A DNA stretch of 64,000 nt from Leptolyngbya sp. BC1307 (GTDB taxonomy: Bacteria; Cyanobacteriota; Cyanobacteriia; Phormidesmidales; Phormidesmidaceae): assembly GCF_002286735.1 (NCBI RefSeq), contig NZ_NRTA01000004.1:1-64000 (forward strand), in the 5' to 3' direction. Positions 5,641 to 13,841 of this stretch are shown in pieces; the stretch's first letter is position 1; the number at the start of each line of letters is the position of its first letter. The notes beneath the pieces were generated by a model, which was not told the DNA's origin, did no database searches, and saw only the letters and a program-made list of their open reading frames with translations. A program made the position numbers and the translations under genes.

Positions 5641-5959
5641 GCTCAGCGAACGTATGAACAGCTTCTACAGTTTGCGGAATGTTGTTCTGGCTATTGTCAT
5701 AACTAGCTTTGTGCTGGGCTGGGCCTGGCTTGGCTGGCTGACGCCAACTGGGAGCAGCTTGCATGAGCCTTTAGCTCAGCCTATTGGTGAGACTGCCCTC
5801 ACTCCGTCTTTGAAGCAGCTATGAGTCACAACAACAGCAGATTCGGGCGTGGGCTCGCTACGCTGGGCGATCGCTCAGGCAAACGCAGCCCCAGATAGCG
5901 ATCTAATTGACTTGAGTGGGGTAAAAGGAGCGATCGCTTTAGAAAGTCCCCTACCCGCA

Positions 5960-5996
5960 ATTACCAACAGCCTGACGCTGGCAGGCTGTTGGTAAT
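5960..5996. repeat. 15-bp perfect inverted repeat at the first frameshift
   Basis: ATTACCAACAGCCTG (5960-5974) and its exact complement CAGGCTGTTGGTAAT (5982-5996) with a 7-nt loop. Removing TGTT from the right arm would restore the reading frame as AGGNTISG, so the arm looks as if it was made perfect by a templated 4-bp insertion. Confidence 0.85.
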
Positions 5997-6231
5997 ACTA
6001 TTAGCGGCAACAGTCAGCACCGCATCCTTGAAATTAATAGGGGAGACGGTGGCAATGGGGGAAATGGCGGCTTTGGCGGGGCTATTTTCGTGCGTTCAGG
6101 CAGCTTAATATTGCACCAGGTGCGGTTTGAGCGGAATGTAGCGATAGGTGGGGGAGGGCGATCGCCCGGTCAGGGCAAAGGCGGCGCAATCCTTATTAGT
6201 CCGCACAGATCGATAGACCAGGCTGGGGCTG

Positions 6232-6271
6232 GGGCGATTCACCTAGCGTTTCGTTGCTAGGTGAATCGCCC
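6232..6271. repeat. 16-bp perfect inverted repeat at the second frameshift
   Basis: GGGCGATTCACCTAGC (6232-6247) and GCTAGGTGAATCGCCC (6256-6271) with an 8-nt loop. It lies exactly where the beta-helix pseudogene changes frame a second time. Confidence 0.85.
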
Positions 6272-6431
6272 GTCTTTATCGAGAACAGAGCTGCTGATGC
6301 GGCTGATCTGACCACCGATAATAACGATGTCTATGGGACAATTTCTCAGCGGTAAAGCAGCGCTATGAGTTCTGGCAGGCGGAGTTTCTATCGTATGAGA
6401 TAATCGGGCGGTCAGCCGAGAGTTTGAACTT

Positions 6432-7409
6432 ATGCAACCCGCTCTTCCTCCTAATCTTTCTAAGATGGGCTGTGGCACCTGGGCCTGGGGCAATCGTCTC
6501 CTTTGGAACTATGACGAAGCGATGGACGATGAGCTGCAGTCTGTGTTTGACCACTGCGTCACCCAGGGCGTCACCCTGTTTGATACCGGTGACTCCTACG
6601 GTACCGGTAAGCTCAATGGCCAGAGTGAAAAGCTGTTGGGCCGATTTAGCGCAGCTTACCAGGGCGAAAACAAAGCGCAGATCTGTCTGGCTACTAAGCT
6701 TGCCCCCTATCCCTGGCGGCTGACTCGTCAGTCGATGATTGCTGCTGGACGGGCTTCCAGGCAGCGATTAGGACGGCTGGATTTAGTGCAGATGCACTGG
6801 TCTACCGCTAACTATTTGCCCTGGCAAGAGCGACCTTTACTGGACGGTCTAGCGGCGCTATGCGATCAGGGGTTGGCGCAGAGCGTTGGCCTTTCCAACT
6901 ACGGGCCTGAGCGATTGCAGTGGGCACATCAGCGCTTAGCTGACCAAGGAATTAAGGTTCAAACTTTGCAGGTTCAGTATTCGCTGCTGTCTACCTATCC
7001 GGTCACGACTCTAGGTCTCAAGTCGGTCTGCGACGAGCTAGGCATTCAGCTGATTGCCTATAGCCCGCTGGCGCTGGGCCTGCTTACCGGCAAGTACGCT
7101 GACAAATCCGATTTGCCCAAAGGACTGCGAAAGTTTGCGCTAGGCCAAATTTTGCCAGGCGTGAAGCCGCTGCTGGGCTGTCTCAAAGCGGTGGCCACCG
7201 CTAGAGGTAAGACTATGGCTCAAGTGGCGATTAACTGGTGTATCTGCAAAGGGACAATCCCGATTCCGGGTGCTAAAACGCTGCGCCAGGCCAAGCAGAA
7301 TACCGGGGCGTTAGGCTGGCAGCTCGACAACGCCGAGGTGAGCGAGCTAGATACGGCCTCAGCCGCCTGCGATAAACAGATGGTGCAAAATATCTTCCAG
7401 ACTGGCTAG
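6432..7409 (+). CDS. Aldo/keto reductase family protein
   Basis: 325-aa cytosolic NADPH-dependent carbonyl reductase of the AKR fold. The catalytic tetrad is visible: Asp51 and Tyr56 in FDTGDSYG, Lys89 in ATKLAP and His122 in VQMHW. GLSNYGP and IPIPGAKTLRQA mark the cofactor-binding end of the (beta/alpha)8 barrel. The length is normal. The substrate cannot be predicted; plant and cyanobacterial relatives are often annotated only as aldo/keto reductases or pyridoxal-reductase-like proteins. The ATG follows the decayed surface-protein gene by about 75 bp, so it probably has its own promoter. Confidence 0.92.
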   Translation: MQPALPPNLSKMGCGTWAWGNRLLWNYDEAMDDELQSVFDHCVTQGVTLFDTGDSYGTGKLNGQSEKLLGRFSAAYQGENKAQICLATKLAPYPWRLTRQSMIAAGRASRQRLGRLDLVQMHWSTANYLPWQERPLLDGLAALCDQGLAQSVGLSNYGPERLQWAHQRLADQGIKVQTLQVQYSLLSTYPVTTLGLKSVCDELGIQLIAYSPLALGLLTGKYADKSDLPKGLRKFALGQILPGVKPLLGCLKAVATARGKTMAQVAINWCICKGTIPIPGAKTLRQAKQNTGALGWQLDNAEVSELDTASAACDKQMVQNIFQTG

Positions 7410-8746: not shown

Positions 8747-11512
8747 CTACAGCCAGCTACCGAGCAAAATGTAAGGAGCCCAGTAGATCGGATGCTGGTA
8801 TTGAGGGTCTTTGAGTAGCTGTACTTGGGCCGTGCGTAGGGCAGCGGCTCGGGTTGCGCCGGGCTGCTTGAGCTGCTTGTAAAAATAGCCGGCAAACTGA
8901 GCGGTAGCTTCGTCATTAATGGCCCACAGCGTAGCTACCGTACTGCGAGCACCGGCTTTAATAGCGACCCCTGCCAGCCCTAAGGCGGCTCGTTGATCGC
9001 CGCTAGCCGTTTCGCAGGCGCTTAAGACCAGGAGCTGAATGGTAGCGCGATCATTCGGATTAACCTGCAGTATCTGGCTCAATTCTCTCACCGTGATCCG
9101 GTCGTCCCAGGCGATTAAATAAGTCTCTTCTGGCGTAGAGCTAAACTGACCGTGCGTAGCAATGTGAACAATTGGATAGTTGGCCGACTCTAGTTTTTCA
9201 GGCAGTGACTTCTGCGTAAAATCTCGGTTTAAGAGCACAGTGCTGCGCTCAAAAGTAGCTGTGATCTTTTCAATTTCGCTAGCGACATAGGGAAGGGGCG
9301 ATCGCCCCAAACGACCCTCTGTCAGGCCAGCGACGAGCACATCCAAATTTGTTGTGTCCCAGGGCTCAGGCTTTAACAGCTTGAGGCCGGGTGCTAAAGC
9401 AACACCGTAGTCTTCAATCAAAAAGTGGCGGCCATCGTAGAGTGCGGCCATCGGCAGACTTTGCAAAGGCCCATCTAAAACAAACACCAGCGTGTCTACG
9501 CCGCTGCTGTCAATCGCCGCACGAGCTGGGCCAATCAGCCACTGATAAACTATTTCAGCTGTAGAAAAATACTCTCTACGACTGCGGATGACTAGCTGTT
9601 GGCGCAGTCGAGCGGCCGTCTCAGTCACCACGCTCGCTGAGACTGTCGTCGTGAAGTATTGCAGCGGCTGGTCGGGCAAACGCAAAATCACCGCCAGGCG
9701 ATCTTTGAGAATAATCGAATAGACAATTGCTGCTCTAGGGTCTACCTGATTGATGTTGATGGGCTCAATATCGGCGCAGGCTTCTTTGAAATAGTCGTCG
9801 AGTTCTGCTAATCGCAATGATTCGATCACCGCTTGCGCATTGACCAGATCTGCCTGACTGACCGCGTCCGACGATAGCAGCAGCCTCACTAACTGGCGAT
9901 AGATGGGCTCTGCATTCTCCTTAAACGAAAACTGAGCGCTATCTCCGACTGCTGCTAAGTCGCCGCGCAGACCAGAGAGGGTGGCGATCGCCTGATTATA
10001 AGCATCGAGCGCTGCGGGCACAGCCTGCTGCGGATTGTTAGGAGCCTGCCAGATTCTACCTAGCTGCCACTGCCATTGATAGGTCAAGGCAGCCGCATTC
10101 AGGCGGTTGCTCAGTTGGAGGGCTTGCTGAGTGAGATCTTGGGCGATCGCCCACTGCTGAGTTTGCTCATATACCCGACCTAGCGTGCCGACGGCGTAGG
10201 CTTCGGCTCTCATATCTCCTAGCTCACGGGCCTGCTGGCTGGCTCGCTGTAGCTGCTGAGCAATCGTCATCCAGCTAAGGCCGACGGCATTGGGATCGGT
10301 CTGCTTGATCCGGATCAGGCTGTGCGCCCAGTTGACCTGGAGATAAACAGTTGTGCGGCTAGGCGGCAAACTGGCAAACTGCGCCTGAATCTCAGGCCAT
10401 AGCACGGCAGCAGTAGACCACTGAGCGGTCTCCACCCCCAGCTCTAAGAGGGCAAGCTGAACGGGCACTCTCTGGGCGGCTGAGCCGCTTTCTAAGCTCA
10501 GTGCCTGCTGGTAGAAGGCTTGAGCTGCTGCTTTATCGCCCCCGCTATAGGCAGTGTGGCCCAGACTGAGCAAAGTAGCGCTGACTTCTGCGGGCAGATC
10601 GTATTGTTGGGCGATCGCCAGGCTCTGAGTCAGCGTCGTCTGCGCTTCTGCAAGCTGACCGTTCAGGCGCAGGGTCTCTCCAATCCGCCTGAGCGTTGTT
10701 GCCTTCAGCGGTGAAGGCGGCTGCTCGGCCATCGCTGCAATGACGCTGGTGAGCCGTTCAAGTGCCTGCCGGTAAAACCCCAATTCTCTCAGAGCCTGGG
10801 CCTGGTTGATGCGAGCGCGATCGCTGCCAGTGGTATCGCCGCCCTGTCGGTAGGCCGCTTCAGCCTGTTGCCAGATTTCCAAAGCCTGGCGGGAGTGACC
10901 TAGCGCCATTTGCAGACTGCCCTGAGCCATCAGCACTTGGGCCTGTATTCGCTGCTGCATAGGTGTTTCAGGCTCACCTAACATGGCCAGGCTGCTATCA
11001 ATCGCAGCCTGTGCGTCTGTCCAGCGGCCTAGCTGCTGATAGGCCAGTGACAGGTTGCTCAGGGCACCGGCCTCGGCAATAGCGTTCTGCTGGGCGGCGT
11101 AGCTTTGCGCTAGATGTTGCCAGAGAGCGATCGCGCCCAAAAAATCACCATCGAGATACCGCGCTCTGCCCTGCTGCTCCAGCTGAGTAGGCGTGAGCTG
11201 AGGAGCGGATTGACTAACCTGGCTGACGATTAAGCGCTTGGCTGCTGTCGAATCGGTTGTCTGAGCAGTGACTATGGTCTGGGCAGTGACTATGGTCTGA
11301 GAGACAGTGATCTGAGAGACAGCGGTCTGAGAGACAGCGAGATTGTTGCCGGGCTGATGAGCCCATGCAAACGAGCCCATACCCATATAGGAGGAGCCGG
11401 TTAATCCAGCGCTACAAAGGCTGATGAACCATCCTAGAAGGAGCGCTCTCACAAATTTCAGTTGGTACCATTGTTTTCGCCCTGAAGATTTTTGCGCTGA
11501 AGACTTTTGCAC
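8747..11512 (-). CDS. CHAT domain protein with TPR repeats
   Basis: 921-aa exported protein. An N-terminal hydrophobic helix (FVRALLLGWFISLCSAG) suggests a signal peptide. Residues about 100-470 contain TPR-like helical repeats (ALSNLSLAYQQLGRWTDAQ and similar). The C-terminal third is a caspase-like CHAT peptidase domain with the expected dyad: His787 in VHIATHG and Cys833 in LSACETA. The start is taken as GTG at 11512 because an AGGAG box lies 8 bp upstream; an ATG at 11569 would overlap the preceding gene and has no such box. It follows the FHA-domain gene by 25 bp, a gene pair common in cyanobacteria. The role may be processing or export of that surface protein, which is inference. Confidence 0.88.
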   Translation of the reverse strand: MQKSSAQKSSGRKQWYQLKFVRALLLGWFISLCSAGLTGSSYMGMGSFAWAHQPGNNLAVSQTAVSQITVSQTIVTAQTIVTAQTTDSTAAKRLIVSQVSQSAPQLTPTQLEQQGRARYLDGDFLGAIALWQHLAQSYAAQQNAIAEAGALSNLSLAYQQLGRWTDAQAAIDSSLAMLGEPETPMQQRIQAQVLMAQGSLQMALGHSRQALEIWQQAEAAYRQGGDTTGSDRARINQAQALRELGFYRQALERLTSVIAAMAEQPPSPLKATTLRRIGETLRLNGQLAEAQTTLTQSLAIAQQYDLPAEVSATLLSLGHTAYSGGDKAAAQAFYQQALSLESGSAAQRVPVQLALLELGVETAQWSTAAVLWPEIQAQFASLPPSRTTVYLQVNWAHSLIRIKQTDPNAVGLSWMTIAQQLQRASQQARELGDMRAEAYAVGTLGRVYEQTQQWAIAQDLTQQALQLSNRLNAAALTYQWQWQLGRIWQAPNNPQQAVPAALDAYNQAIATLSGLRGDLAAVGDSAQFSFKENAEPIYRQLVRLLLSSDAVSQADLVNAQAVIESLRLAELDDYFKEACADIEPININQVDPRAAIVYSIILKDRLAVILRLPDQPLQYFTTTVSASVVTETAARLRQQLVIRSRREYFSTAEIVYQWLIGPARAAIDSSGVDTLVFVLDGPLQSLPMAALYDGRHFLIEDYGVALAPGLKLLKPEPWDTTNLDVLVAGLTEGRLGRSPLPYVASEIEKITATFERSTVLLNRDFTQKSLPEKLESANYPIVHIATHGQFSSTPEETYLIAWDDRITVRELSQILQVNPNDRATIQLLVLSACETASGDQRAALGLAGVAIKAGARSTVATLWAINDEATAQFAGYFYKQLKQPGATRAAALRTAQVQLLKDPQYQHPIYWAPYILLGSWL

Positions 11513-11520
11513 TATCAAAG

Positions 11521-11525
11521 CTCCT
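11521..11525 (-). promoter_or_regulatory. Shine-Dalgarno deciding the CHAT gene start
   Basis: AGGAG on the minus strand, 8 nt before GTG at 11512. It supports the GTG over the upstream ATG codons that lack a box. Confidence 0.6.
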
Positions 11526-11537
11526 GAGCCAGCGGCA

Positions 11538-13727
11538 TCACCCGGCACACGGTGCATCAATCTGCCCATCTGAAGTCGCTGCTTGGGGCGCTGTGGTTAG
11601 CACGATCTGGTTTTGATTGTTCGTTGCCCAGCTGCTAGCCTCTATCCATCCCGACGAGGTGAGCGAGTTCTCTCCGGGTTTCTCTGTCGGGCTAAGCGCT
11701 GCTTCACTGCTAGATAGCGGCGCTGGTGGTAAGGTCTCCCAATCAACCGGCCCTAAGTCAATCAGTGGCGCTGTTATTTCTATGGCCTCGGTTGGCGCTG
11801 CGGGCAATCCGCCTCGTCCGGTAATTACAAAGCGGTTATCCTCAGCCTGACAGCTCTGGACGACGGCAGCCTCACTCTCTAAAACTTGCCTGGGTAGCTC
11901 TGTCGTCGCTTGGTCAACGTTTGCGGTCGGCTGATCAACTGCAATGGTCCCGCTGATCCCAAAGTCGGAGCTAGCGTCAACATCGTTAGTGCGATTGCCC
12001 GCGATCGCCCGTCTCTCAGCAATGCCGTACAGCCCTAGGGTCTCAATGGTAATATTACCCCCCCGTCCTTGAGCGGCTCTGGCAATAATGTCGCTATCTT
12101 CTAAAGGAGCCGCCACTACAAAACCCGCCTCAATGGCAATATTGCCCCCATTGCCCATGCCGTTGCCCGTCCCCGCTTGCGCCGAAATCACACTGCCGCG
12201 TCGCAGTACCAGAGTTTCTAAATTATCCAGCCGAATATTGCCGCCGTTGCCAAAGGCTGCCGCCGCTGTCAGCCGGGCTCCATTGTCTAGCCTGAGCGAT
12301 CGCGCATTGACCGCCAGCGTACCCGAATCACCTAAGCCAAAACTGTCAACCGCTATCCGACTACCCTCGTTGATGCTCAGTGAATCTGTATTAATAGCCA
12401 GATTGCCCCCACTGCCAGCCCCAAAGGACACCGACTGAATTTGAGCACCCTCAGTGACGGTGAGCTGACGGGTGTTAATAATTAAGTCACCGCCTGCTCC
12501 TGAGCCTTCCGTCGAGGTGGTTATTAGACTGGGCGAGAAGCGCCCTGATCCCCTCAGCGTAACCGCATCTGAGGCGTTGATGGTCAGCGTGCCGCCATCA
12601 CCCGCCCCAAAGGTGCCGCCAGAAATCAGTGCGCCAGACGTTACCGTTAATTGCCGGGTAGCGATGCTTAAGCTAGCGCCATCACCGTCAAAGGCTGAAA
12701 AGAGAATGCCTGTGCCGGTAATGACTACAGACTCACTCGCGATCAGCGCTATTGATCCGGTTGATGAACTACCTAAGCTAAAGTTAGTGATCGCTGATTG
12801 CTCTGCCACCGTAACGCTGCGACCCTGAAGCGTGATTTGCCCACCTTCACCGCTAGCATCGACCAAAGATCTGTCGGTGAGCTGAATGTCTCCAAAAGCC
12901 TCTGTGTCTGAGTAGCCCAGTCTGAGGTCGGGCAAGAGCAAAACCTGACTATTGGCAGCGACACTGCCAATTCCTATCCGCCCGCTGCTAGCCGTCAGGC
13001 TACCGTTCTCCAAAGCAACGAAACCGCCCACTAACGAAAGCGTTCTGCCAGCGTCCACCTCTAGACCAGCGGGCTCTCCTAAGGCATTACTCGCGCCAGC
13101 TAGGCTAGCCTGAGACCGGTTGATGATAGAGCCTGGGCGATCGCCAAACTGAAATCCAATCGGGGCGCTGACCTGCAGCGTGGGCAGCGTGCTGTCTGTC
13201 GCACTAAACCGTACGCCGTTTGAGAACATCACACTGTCAGCAGTGCTAGCGATGAAAGAGCCTGGGCTCACCAAAGCCGACTCAGGGCCGAAAATAATAC
13301 CCCGAGGATTGATCAGAAAAAAATTGGTCTGGCCACCACCAGCGATCGCCAGCGTCCCCTCAATCGTAGAAGCGATGCCAGAGACCCGAGCAAATATATT
13401 AGCAGCGCCCCCACTTTCAAACGTAGCGGTAACACCAGCTGGAATACTCAACTCGCTGAAACTATGAAAGAGGCTGTCGTCTAGTCGGCTGCCGCCCAGT
13501 ACTGTGCAGTCTGTCGCACAGTCGATTCCGCCAACAAGGGTGGTCTGCGTCGTGCCATCGGGCCTTACCCTAAGCGGCTCGCTCTTGGCAGGTAGGCCAA
13601 GGCTGTAAAAAGCAACGGCAAAACCACTGACAAAAAGAGGTATAAAGCTATACTGTTTGGCCATGTGAGCTGATGAGGATATAGAAGCTGACGAAAGGGT
13701 CAGTGCGCATCTGTAGGAGACAACCAT
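11538..13727 (-). CDS. Filamentous haemagglutinin N-terminal domain (TpsA-like) surface protein
   Basis: 729-aa protein likely secreted by a two-partner (type Vb) route. After a signal segment (FIPLFVSGFAVAFYSLGLPAKS) comes the TPS domain with the diagnostic NPRGIIFG near residue 140. A beta-helix built of Ser/Ala/Gly-rich strands (GSGGNLAIN, GDGGTLTIN types) follows. The C-terminus carries the CQAEDNRFVITGRGGLP stretch typical of cyanobacterial FHA proteins. ATG at 13727 is chosen for its AGAGG box 8 bp upstream; the frame is open to a TTG at 13784, and an ATG at 13664 is also possible. The TpsB (FhaC/ShlB) partner is not in this window. The CHAT/TPR gene directly downstream is probably co-transcribed. 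Confidence 0.9.
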   Translation of the reverse strand: MVVSYRCALTLSSASISSSAHMAKQYSFIPLFVSGFAVAFYSLGLPAKSEPLRVRPDGTTQTTLVGGIDCATDCTVLGGSRLDDSLFHSFSELSIPAGVTATFESGGAANIFARVSGIASTIEGTLAIAGGGQTNFFLINPRGIIFGPESALVSPGSFIASTADSVMFSNGVRFSATDSTLPTLQVSAPIGFQFGDRPGSIINRSQASLAGASNALGEPAGLEVDAGRTLSLVGGFVALENGSLTASSGRIGIGSVAANSQVLLLPDLRLGYSDTEAFGDIQLTDRSLVDASGEGGQITLQGRSVTVAEQSAITNFSLGSSSTGSIALIASESVVITGTGILFSAFDGDGASLSIATRQLTVTSGALISGGTFGAGDGGTLTINASDAVTLRGSGRFSPSLITTSTEGSGAGGDLIINTRQLTVTEGAQIQSVSFGAGSGGNLAINTDSLSINEGSRIAVDSFGLGDSGTLAVNARSLRLDNGARLTAAAAFGNGGNIRLDNLETLVLRRGSVISAQAGTGNGMGNGGNIAIEAGFVVAAPLEDSDIIARAAQGRGGNITIETLGLYGIAERRAIAGNRTNDVDASSDFGISGTIAVDQPTANVDQATTELPRQVLESEAAVVQSCQAEDNRFVITGRGGLPAAPTEAIEITAPLIDLGPVDWETLPPAPLSSSEAALSPTEKPGENSLTSSGWIEASSWATNNQNQIVLTTAPQAATSDGQIDAPCAG

Positions 13728-13735
13728 AACTCCAT

Positions 13736-13740
13736 CCTCT
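13736..13740 (-). promoter_or_regulatory. Shine-Dalgarno favouring the 13727 start of the FHA gene
   Basis: AGAGG on the minus strand, 8 nt ahead of the ATG at 13727. Neither the TTG at 13784 nor the ATG codons at 13772 and 13664 have a comparable box. Confidence 0.5.
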
Positions 13741-13841
13741 TTCTGACTTTGAGAAAGCTGGAAGTCAGGCATTCTATCAATCAATTATTCCCAATATGTC
13801 GATTCGTCAACTGCTTTATTGAGTTAGCTTAATAAAACTGT

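Follow-up and report, generated by a model that had tools for sequence, protein, structure and literature searches.

Perfect hairpins at both frame changes of a cyanobacterial pseudogene: probable footprints of quasipalindrome template switching

Template switching at quasipalindromes turns imperfect inverted repeats into perfect ones and gives rise to frameshifts; the process has been described in yeast and phage T4 and is supported in Escherichia coli (PMC7202029). The same paper presents the lacZ reporters QP5 and QP6, covering the leading and the lagging strand, with a 4-bp frameshift in an 18-bp repeat, and refers to the Ripley model and to the thyA hotspot of E. coli (PMC7202029). Short template switches have also been inferred by genome comparison, both in RNA stems (PMC8794818) and in yeast proteins (PMC8604942), and perfect inverted repeats have been reported inside genes of Nematomorpha mitochondria (PMC6649704). 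For bacteria, a review counts quasi-palindromes among the causes of local mutation bias (PMC10710837).

A literature search combining quasipalindromes and cyanobacteria yielded an inverted-repeat survey of bacterial genomes, which cites the mechanism, and among the matches listed in the open-access literature (titles and abstract openings) there was no comparable case of template-switched gene loss. To our knowledge, template-switch mutation, well studied with reporters, has seldom been traced as the cause of gene loss in wild bacteria. Here we describe a gene remnant in Leptolyngbya sp. BC1307 in which both changes of reading frame fall at perfect hairpins, and we put the probability that both frameshifts are footprints of quasipalindrome template switches in a pseudogene at about 0.7.

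A pseudogene of a glycine-rich protein family

The analysed DNA, referred to below as the window, is a stretch of 64,000 nucleotides from a draft assembly of 4.92 Mb (4,916,582 bases in 222 contigs). It contains GCGATCGC sites, which are typical of cyanobacteria, and the homologues of its sequence point to a cyanobacterial host. The remnant, 0.7 kb in length, is located between an intact ORF of 225 aa and an intact aldo/keto reductase gene (6432-7409), and its parts are reported in Table 1. Further along the window, at 8747-13784, two ORFs (940 and 748 aa) lie in tandem on the reverse strand; inspected by eye, they resemble a TPR/CHAT-type protein and a secreted protein of the filamentous-haemagglutinin type.

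Table 1. Features of the remnant and of the ORF upstream of it (window coordinates)
Feature	Position	Strand	Remarks
Upstream ORF, intact, 225 aa	4963-5640	+	ABM-domain similarity under cut-off; synteny marker
Remnant N-terminal segment, frame 2, hydrophobic	5654-5821	+	tblastn against L026: 53% over 32 aa
In-frame TGA	5822-5824	+	Sense codon in homologues, just before the VTT motif
Conserved N-half, frame 2, VTTTADSGVGSLRWAIAQAN...ITNSLTLAG	5825-5986	+	HMM nodes 1-57, 74.8 bits, start just before the TGA
Hairpin 1, left arm	5960-5974	+	Encodes family-like ITNSL; putative template
Hairpin 1, right arm	5982-5996	+	Putative recipient of templated change
TGTT in the slot of one residue, mostly Asn/Asp	5987-5990	+	Complement of left-arm AACA
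Frame 0 stretch: end of N-half (TISGNSQHRILEINRGD) fused to C-half (GGAIFVRSG...GQGKGGAILISP...DQAG)	5991-6227	+	HMM N nodes 56-78, 13.1 bits; C nodes 3-60, 71.2 bits
Junction with missing glycine-rich middle, within glycine-codon repeats	6045-6062	+	About 255-330 residues lost
Hairpin 2, left arm	6232-6247	+	Putative recipient; net +2 within 6228-6241
Hairpin 2, right arm	6256-6271	+	Encodes family-register LLGESP; putative template
C-terminal stretch, frame 2 (SPSVSLLGESPVFIENRAADAADLTTDNNDVYGTISQR, stop)	6239-6355	+	HMM nodes 64-98, 33.2 bits

The full-length homologues have open frames of about 500-720 codons, code for glycine-rich proteins and share one layout: a conserved N-half (consensus VTT.AD.G.GSLRWAI.QAN ... 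SPLP.IT..L.L.GNG..TISG..HRVL), a glycine-rich middle and a conserved C-half (GGAIF.RSG.LIL ... GQGKGGAIF ... P.V..L...P.F..N.A.DA...TDN..VYG) ending near TDNxxVYG. Identity between the homologues and the N-half and C-half pieces of the window ranges from about 38 to 80%. The two halves are matched by the remnant (74.8, 71.2 and 33.2 bits), and the middle, which comprises 264-338 residues in 15 of 17 homologues (it was unmeasurable in the other two), is almost wholly gone, with about 9 residues left in the window. In Pfam, two of four full-length homologues contain DUF4347 and the two remnant pieces have no match, and NCBIfam gave NosD-like matches, far under cut-off, for three of the same four homologues. 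At E <= 0.001 the N-half profile found matches in 175 of the 388 genomes of the class, many of which probably hold more general relatives.

The sequence-only reading had called this stretch a pseudogene broken at two places, a call borne out by the TGA at 5822-5824, by the two frame changes and by a middle that is short of about 255-330 residues. It had overlooked two of these lesions, namely the TGA and the large in-frame loss near 6045-6062, which together mean that the gene is dead. Judged from its sequence, the remnant once encoded a glycine-rich protein, probably a secreted one, and is now a pseudogene that carries a nonsense change, the loss of its middle and two frameshifts; its hydrophobic N-terminal segment could, by eye, be a signal or an anchor.

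A homologue in Filamentous cyanobacterium CCP5 (L026/L081) adjoins the same upstream gene: the counterpart of the 225-aa ORF, 75% identical, is located on G010:C865 directly upstream of L026. This shared neighbour makes the remnant probably orthologous to L026/L081, the contig of which ends inside the homologue. Contig ends fall inside the homologous gene in L025 and L037 as well as in L026; perhaps the glycine-rich repeats break short-read assemblies at these places, and the gene family may be under-reported. A shortened copy was found in another genus of the family (L027:1300-1900, on G016:C60), in which the N-half is joined directly to the C-half (HRWFEHNRAIAG). Its upstream part is altered and its internal deletion differs from that of the window, which implies that the glycine-rich middle has been lost at least twice.

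Hairpins, frame changes and the homologous sites

Perfect inverted repeats of 15 and 16 bp had been claimed at 5960-5996 and 6232-6271, each at a change of frame. Re-derived here, the arms are complementary throughout, with 15 of 15 pairs around a loop of 7 nt in hairpin 1 and 16 of 16 pairs around a loop of 8 nt in hairpin 2 (100% in both). Profile searches place the switches from frame 2 to frame 0 and back to frame 2 at these same hairpins: the remnant matches in frame 2 up to 5986 (74.8 bits), in frame 0 after 5990 and again in frame 2 from 6239 (33.2 bits). Frame 0 is supported by a weak match to the tail of the N-half (13.1 bits) and by a C-half match of 71.2 bits that reaches to 6227. 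The N-half profile was built from 21 sequences (L111, from Leucobacter, was dropped from a set of 22, and L027 stood outside the set on account of its altered upstream part) and the C-half profile from 20 of 21, L027 having been dropped for its own deletion. A second C-half alignment of 12 sequences, mostly shared with the first, gave identical break points at site 2.

Folded as single-stranded DNA, hairpin 1 reaches -17.2 kcal/mol (z -7.4) and hairpin 2 -20.3 kcal/mol (z -8.2), and none of 200 dinucleotide shuffles was as stable as either. Perfect inverted repeats were counted in 680,673 of the 4,916,582 bases of the genome (5 of the 222 contigs, not randomly chosen). With loops of 3-15 there were 16 repeats with arms of at least 11 bp and five with arms of at least 15 bp; hairpins 1 and 2, the starts of which are separated by 272 bp, are two of these five. 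Ten first-order Markov sequences of the same size gave a mean of 2.2 repeats with arms of at least 11 bp, and none with arms of at least 13 bp. Rarity against simulation and stability against shuffles together indicate that the two hairpins are not due to chance and call for a cause. None of the five longest repeats lies inside an ORF of at least 100 aa (ORFs called mechanically and covering 86% of the sample), so that perfect hairpins, as the other three show, arise in non-coding DNA for other reasons too. The longest repeat in the 681 kb, a perfect 22-bp inverted repeat with a 4-base loop at G000:C1:85310-85357 (L149:5310-5357), is situated outside ORFs and is possibly a terminator. The longest inside any ORF of at least 100 aa is a perfect 13-bp repeat with a loop of 7 at G000:C4:81427-81459 (L160:17427-17459), near the 5' end of a 1362-bp ORF.

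In protein-level comparison, left arm 1 (ITNSL) and right arm 2 (LGESP) are found in the register of the profiles, and at each site it is the other arm that carries the odd bases. Since left arm 1 and right arm 2 encode conserved residues, they are the likely templates.

At site 1, left arm 1 reads ITNSL in frame 2 as the homologues do and therefore looks ancestral. The Gly codon of profile node 57 occupies 5984-5986 in frame 2, and the Gly of node 59 occupies 5991-5993 in frame 0 (the latter within the weak 13.1-bit match). At node 58, between the two, the 21 homologues have Asn (10), Asp (8), Gln (1), Ala (1) or Ser (1), and the window has TGTT in this slot. Removing any one base of TGTT leaves TGT, TTT or GTT, none of which is an Asn or Asp codon; a lone one-base insertion thus could not have made TGTT out of such a codon, and copying AACA of the left arm would have done so in one step. 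The TGTT at 5987-5990 is the reverse complement of that AACA. The earlier claim that TGTT is exactly what the left arm would template therefore stands, with one refinement: TGTT seems to have taken the place of a single codon, Asn or Asp in most homologues, instead of having been added as four extra bases.

The net change at site 1 depends on the ancestor. From the Gly codon to the ISG motif the window has 13 nt, compared with 12 in 3, 15 in 17 and 18 in 1 of the 21 homologues. L025 and L026, the two closest full N-halves, belong to the 12-nt (4-residue) group, and L027 has 15 nt. As far as these spacings can tell, the change would be +1 against the nearest syntenic relatives or -2 against most others, the resulting frame being the same; with a net change of -2, the copied tract would have been longer than TGTT. 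The closest copy in DNA at this site is L027: over the 27 bases that run from the left arm to the Gly codon it agrees with the window at 22, an Asn codon comes next, and its perfect repeats do not exceed 5 bp. In the more distant L083 (Pegethrix) the left arm is alike at 14 of 15 bases, and the right side encodes Gly-Asn-Gly and is unmatched. The fold energy of the site in the window, -19.0 kcal/mol, is below that of all 21 homologues (-2.4 to -12.9).

At site 2, the frame 0 match stops at node 60 of the C-half profile (6227) and frame 2 is picked up again at node 64 (6239), leaving 11 nt where 9 fit, i.e. +2. The QAG read in frame 0 of the window is also present in L030 and L038, and L131 has QAK. 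In all three a Pro follows seven residues past that Gln, and the frame-2 Pro of the window accordingly leaves two surplus bases within 6228-6241. This interval lies mostly in left arm 2 (6232-6241 is arm), and right arm 2 would supply the surplus bases; they can be attributed to the opposite arm only if both fall within 6232-6241. The linker from GKGGA to Pro amounts to 17 codons plus two bases in the window and to 17 residues in 8 of 21 homologues, with 14, 15, 16, 29 and 35 also occurring; these lengths come from the 15 of 21 rows that were measured, the Pro pattern having hit the wrong place in L029, L183 and L184 and having failed in L034, L122 and L125. In the near relatives the linker is 35 (L037) or 15 residues (L027), neither of them 17. 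The fold energy of the C site was obtained for 11 of 21 homologues only and was left out of the comparison.

The sequence-only reading had named the same perfect repeats in intact homologues as the observation that would speak against it. These were looked for and were absent from the homologues, some of which are cut by contig ends: perfect repeats did not exceed 9 bp at site 1 in 22 homologues (the 21 and L027 with its 5 bp) or 8 bp at site 2 in 21. Given the distance of the homologues at the DNA level and the truncation of some of them, this absence carries less weight than would a sister allele. Protein and profile searches of 58 relatives, of the family (63 genomes), of the class (388 genomes, N-half only) and of GTDB contigs brought up no near-identical intact allele, and a DNA search of the seven genomes of the genus returned only the copy of the window itself. 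In G005, of the same genus, only a C-half at a contig end (L037) was found, and the N-half profile had no match there. Upstream of the aldo/keto reductase, tblastn over up to 1.5 kb of the sister genomes L005, L006 and L008 revealed no copy (short matches at E > 0.5); L007 provides only 142 bases upstream of the reductase. A plasmid collection gave no match to the 81-aa frame-0 piece. What the protein and profile searches did yield was the syntenic N-half L026/L081 of CCP5, the same-genus C-half L037, the shortened L027 and distant full-length homologues, and the imperfect arms of the ancestor are inferred, never seen.

Template switching and its alternatives

The template-switch explanation put forward in the sequence-only reading is in agreement with the arms at both frame changes, their rarity, the templated TGTT and the lack of the repeats in homologues, strongly so at site 1 and probably at site 2. 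On sequence comparison, quasipalindrome template switching is strongly supported for event 1 and probable for event 2. During DNA synthesis the nascent strand would have folded back on a short inner stem, presumably of about 5 bp at hairpin 1 and 6 bp at hairpin 2. It would then have used the opposite arm as template over a few bases before going back to the proper one. Bases of the recipient arm would thereby have been replaced by the complement of the template arm, perfecting both stems and changing the frame. In the simplest intramolecular model, event 1 would have taken place on the nascent + strand, with the right arm changed, and event 2 on the nascent - strand, with the left arm changed; changed arms on different nascent strands would mean two separate events, the order of which, like the strands, could only be reconstructed. 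That all 31 base pairs are perfect suggests that, measured against neutral change, the events took place recently, or else that correction is a recurrent process; the stems could also have become perfect once the frame had already been lost.

The alternative that deserves most attention, unlikely as we consider it, accepts a templated frameshift 1 and explains frameshift 2 by slippage in the upstream G-runs (GGCTGGGGCTGGGGCG), the 16-bp hairpin having been perfected separately, frame-neutrally or later. The interval of the shift, 6228-6241, does overlap the G-runs, and frame 2 reads SPSVS across much of the left arm, where L037 has SPPSVS. Moreover, the linker is variable in length and is not 17 residues in L037 or L027, so that the same frames would also result from slippage by -1 within the G-runs (6225-6234). 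What tips the balance away from slippage is that both profile searches give +2 (their alignments share most sequences), that the linker of 17 residues implied by +2 occurs in 8 of 21 homologues and that of 18 implied by -1 in none of the 15 measured, and that slippage requires two events where one suffices.

Two further explanations concern the hairpins themselves. Selected RNA or DNA structures may have evolved in dead sequence, for instance as terminators insulating the aldo/keto reductase, with the coincidence with the frame changes being incidental. Hairpin 2 does look terminator-like in a consensus scan, and the other three perfect repeats of at least 15 bp are also outside ORFs, but the T-tail is poor (GTCTTTATCG), the same scan, a lax one, returned 3 sites against 2.4 expected and none at hairpin 1, and no Rfam family reaches its cut-off (one chance-level match elsewhere, none at the hairpins). 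This explanation also leaves unaccounted for that hairpins sit on frame changes and that one arm of each is in the coding register of the family, and we regard it as improbable. More improbable still, to the point of being hardly credible, is a working gene in which the two hairpins are small inserted palindromes or elements of translational bypass, as their similar size at two frame changes might suggest; the TGA and about 255-330 missing residues show the gene to be dead. Both versions were rejected, as the residues encoded by left arm 1 and right arm 2 are those of the family and fall on the profile nodes where they are expected, and as a search of the genome at E <= 0.001 gave no further copy of an inserted hairpin. 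A dispersed repeat was discarded too: a DNA search of the genome with the whole remnant returned only the remnant itself, its own palindrome and a 33-base match to glycine-codon repeats.

If template switching at quasipalindromes is taken to account for both frameshifts, it might even be a leading route of gene inactivation in this lineage, with the locus or its replication as a hotspot. In favour of this could be cited two independent switches, one per nascent strand, in the same 300-bp stretch, with stems that are still perfect; we consider this broader reading unlikely. If it were true, pseudogene hairpins could record template-switch rates in wild bacteria.

Comparison with described systems

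The mechanism is already known, and the locus is a good natural example of it in which the protein register points to the changed arm at both sites. With this pointer in the register of the family protein, the mechanism can be read without a known ancestor, which suggests a cheap survey for perfect hairpins at the frame changes of bacterial pseudogenes.

Among the described systems, the E. coli QP reporters, as presented in PMC7202029, resemble the locus in the perfected repeat, the frameshift of few bases and the opposite arm as its source, and their 4 bp in an 18-bp repeat come close to site 1. They differ in that the events are here inferred from a natural remnant, at two sites in one gene and in a cyanobacterium. 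With the cases reported in PMC8794818 and PMC8604942 the locus has in common that a change of several bases can be explained as one reverse-complement copy from nearby; as described there, those cases rest on phylogenies and ancestral reconstruction, whereas here only distant homologues are at hand and the outcome is a broken gene. Like the mitochondrial genes of Nematomorpha (PMC6649704), the remnant carries perfect repeats in protein-coding sequence, but in those genes, according to the same source, both arms encode protein, while here the gene is broken.
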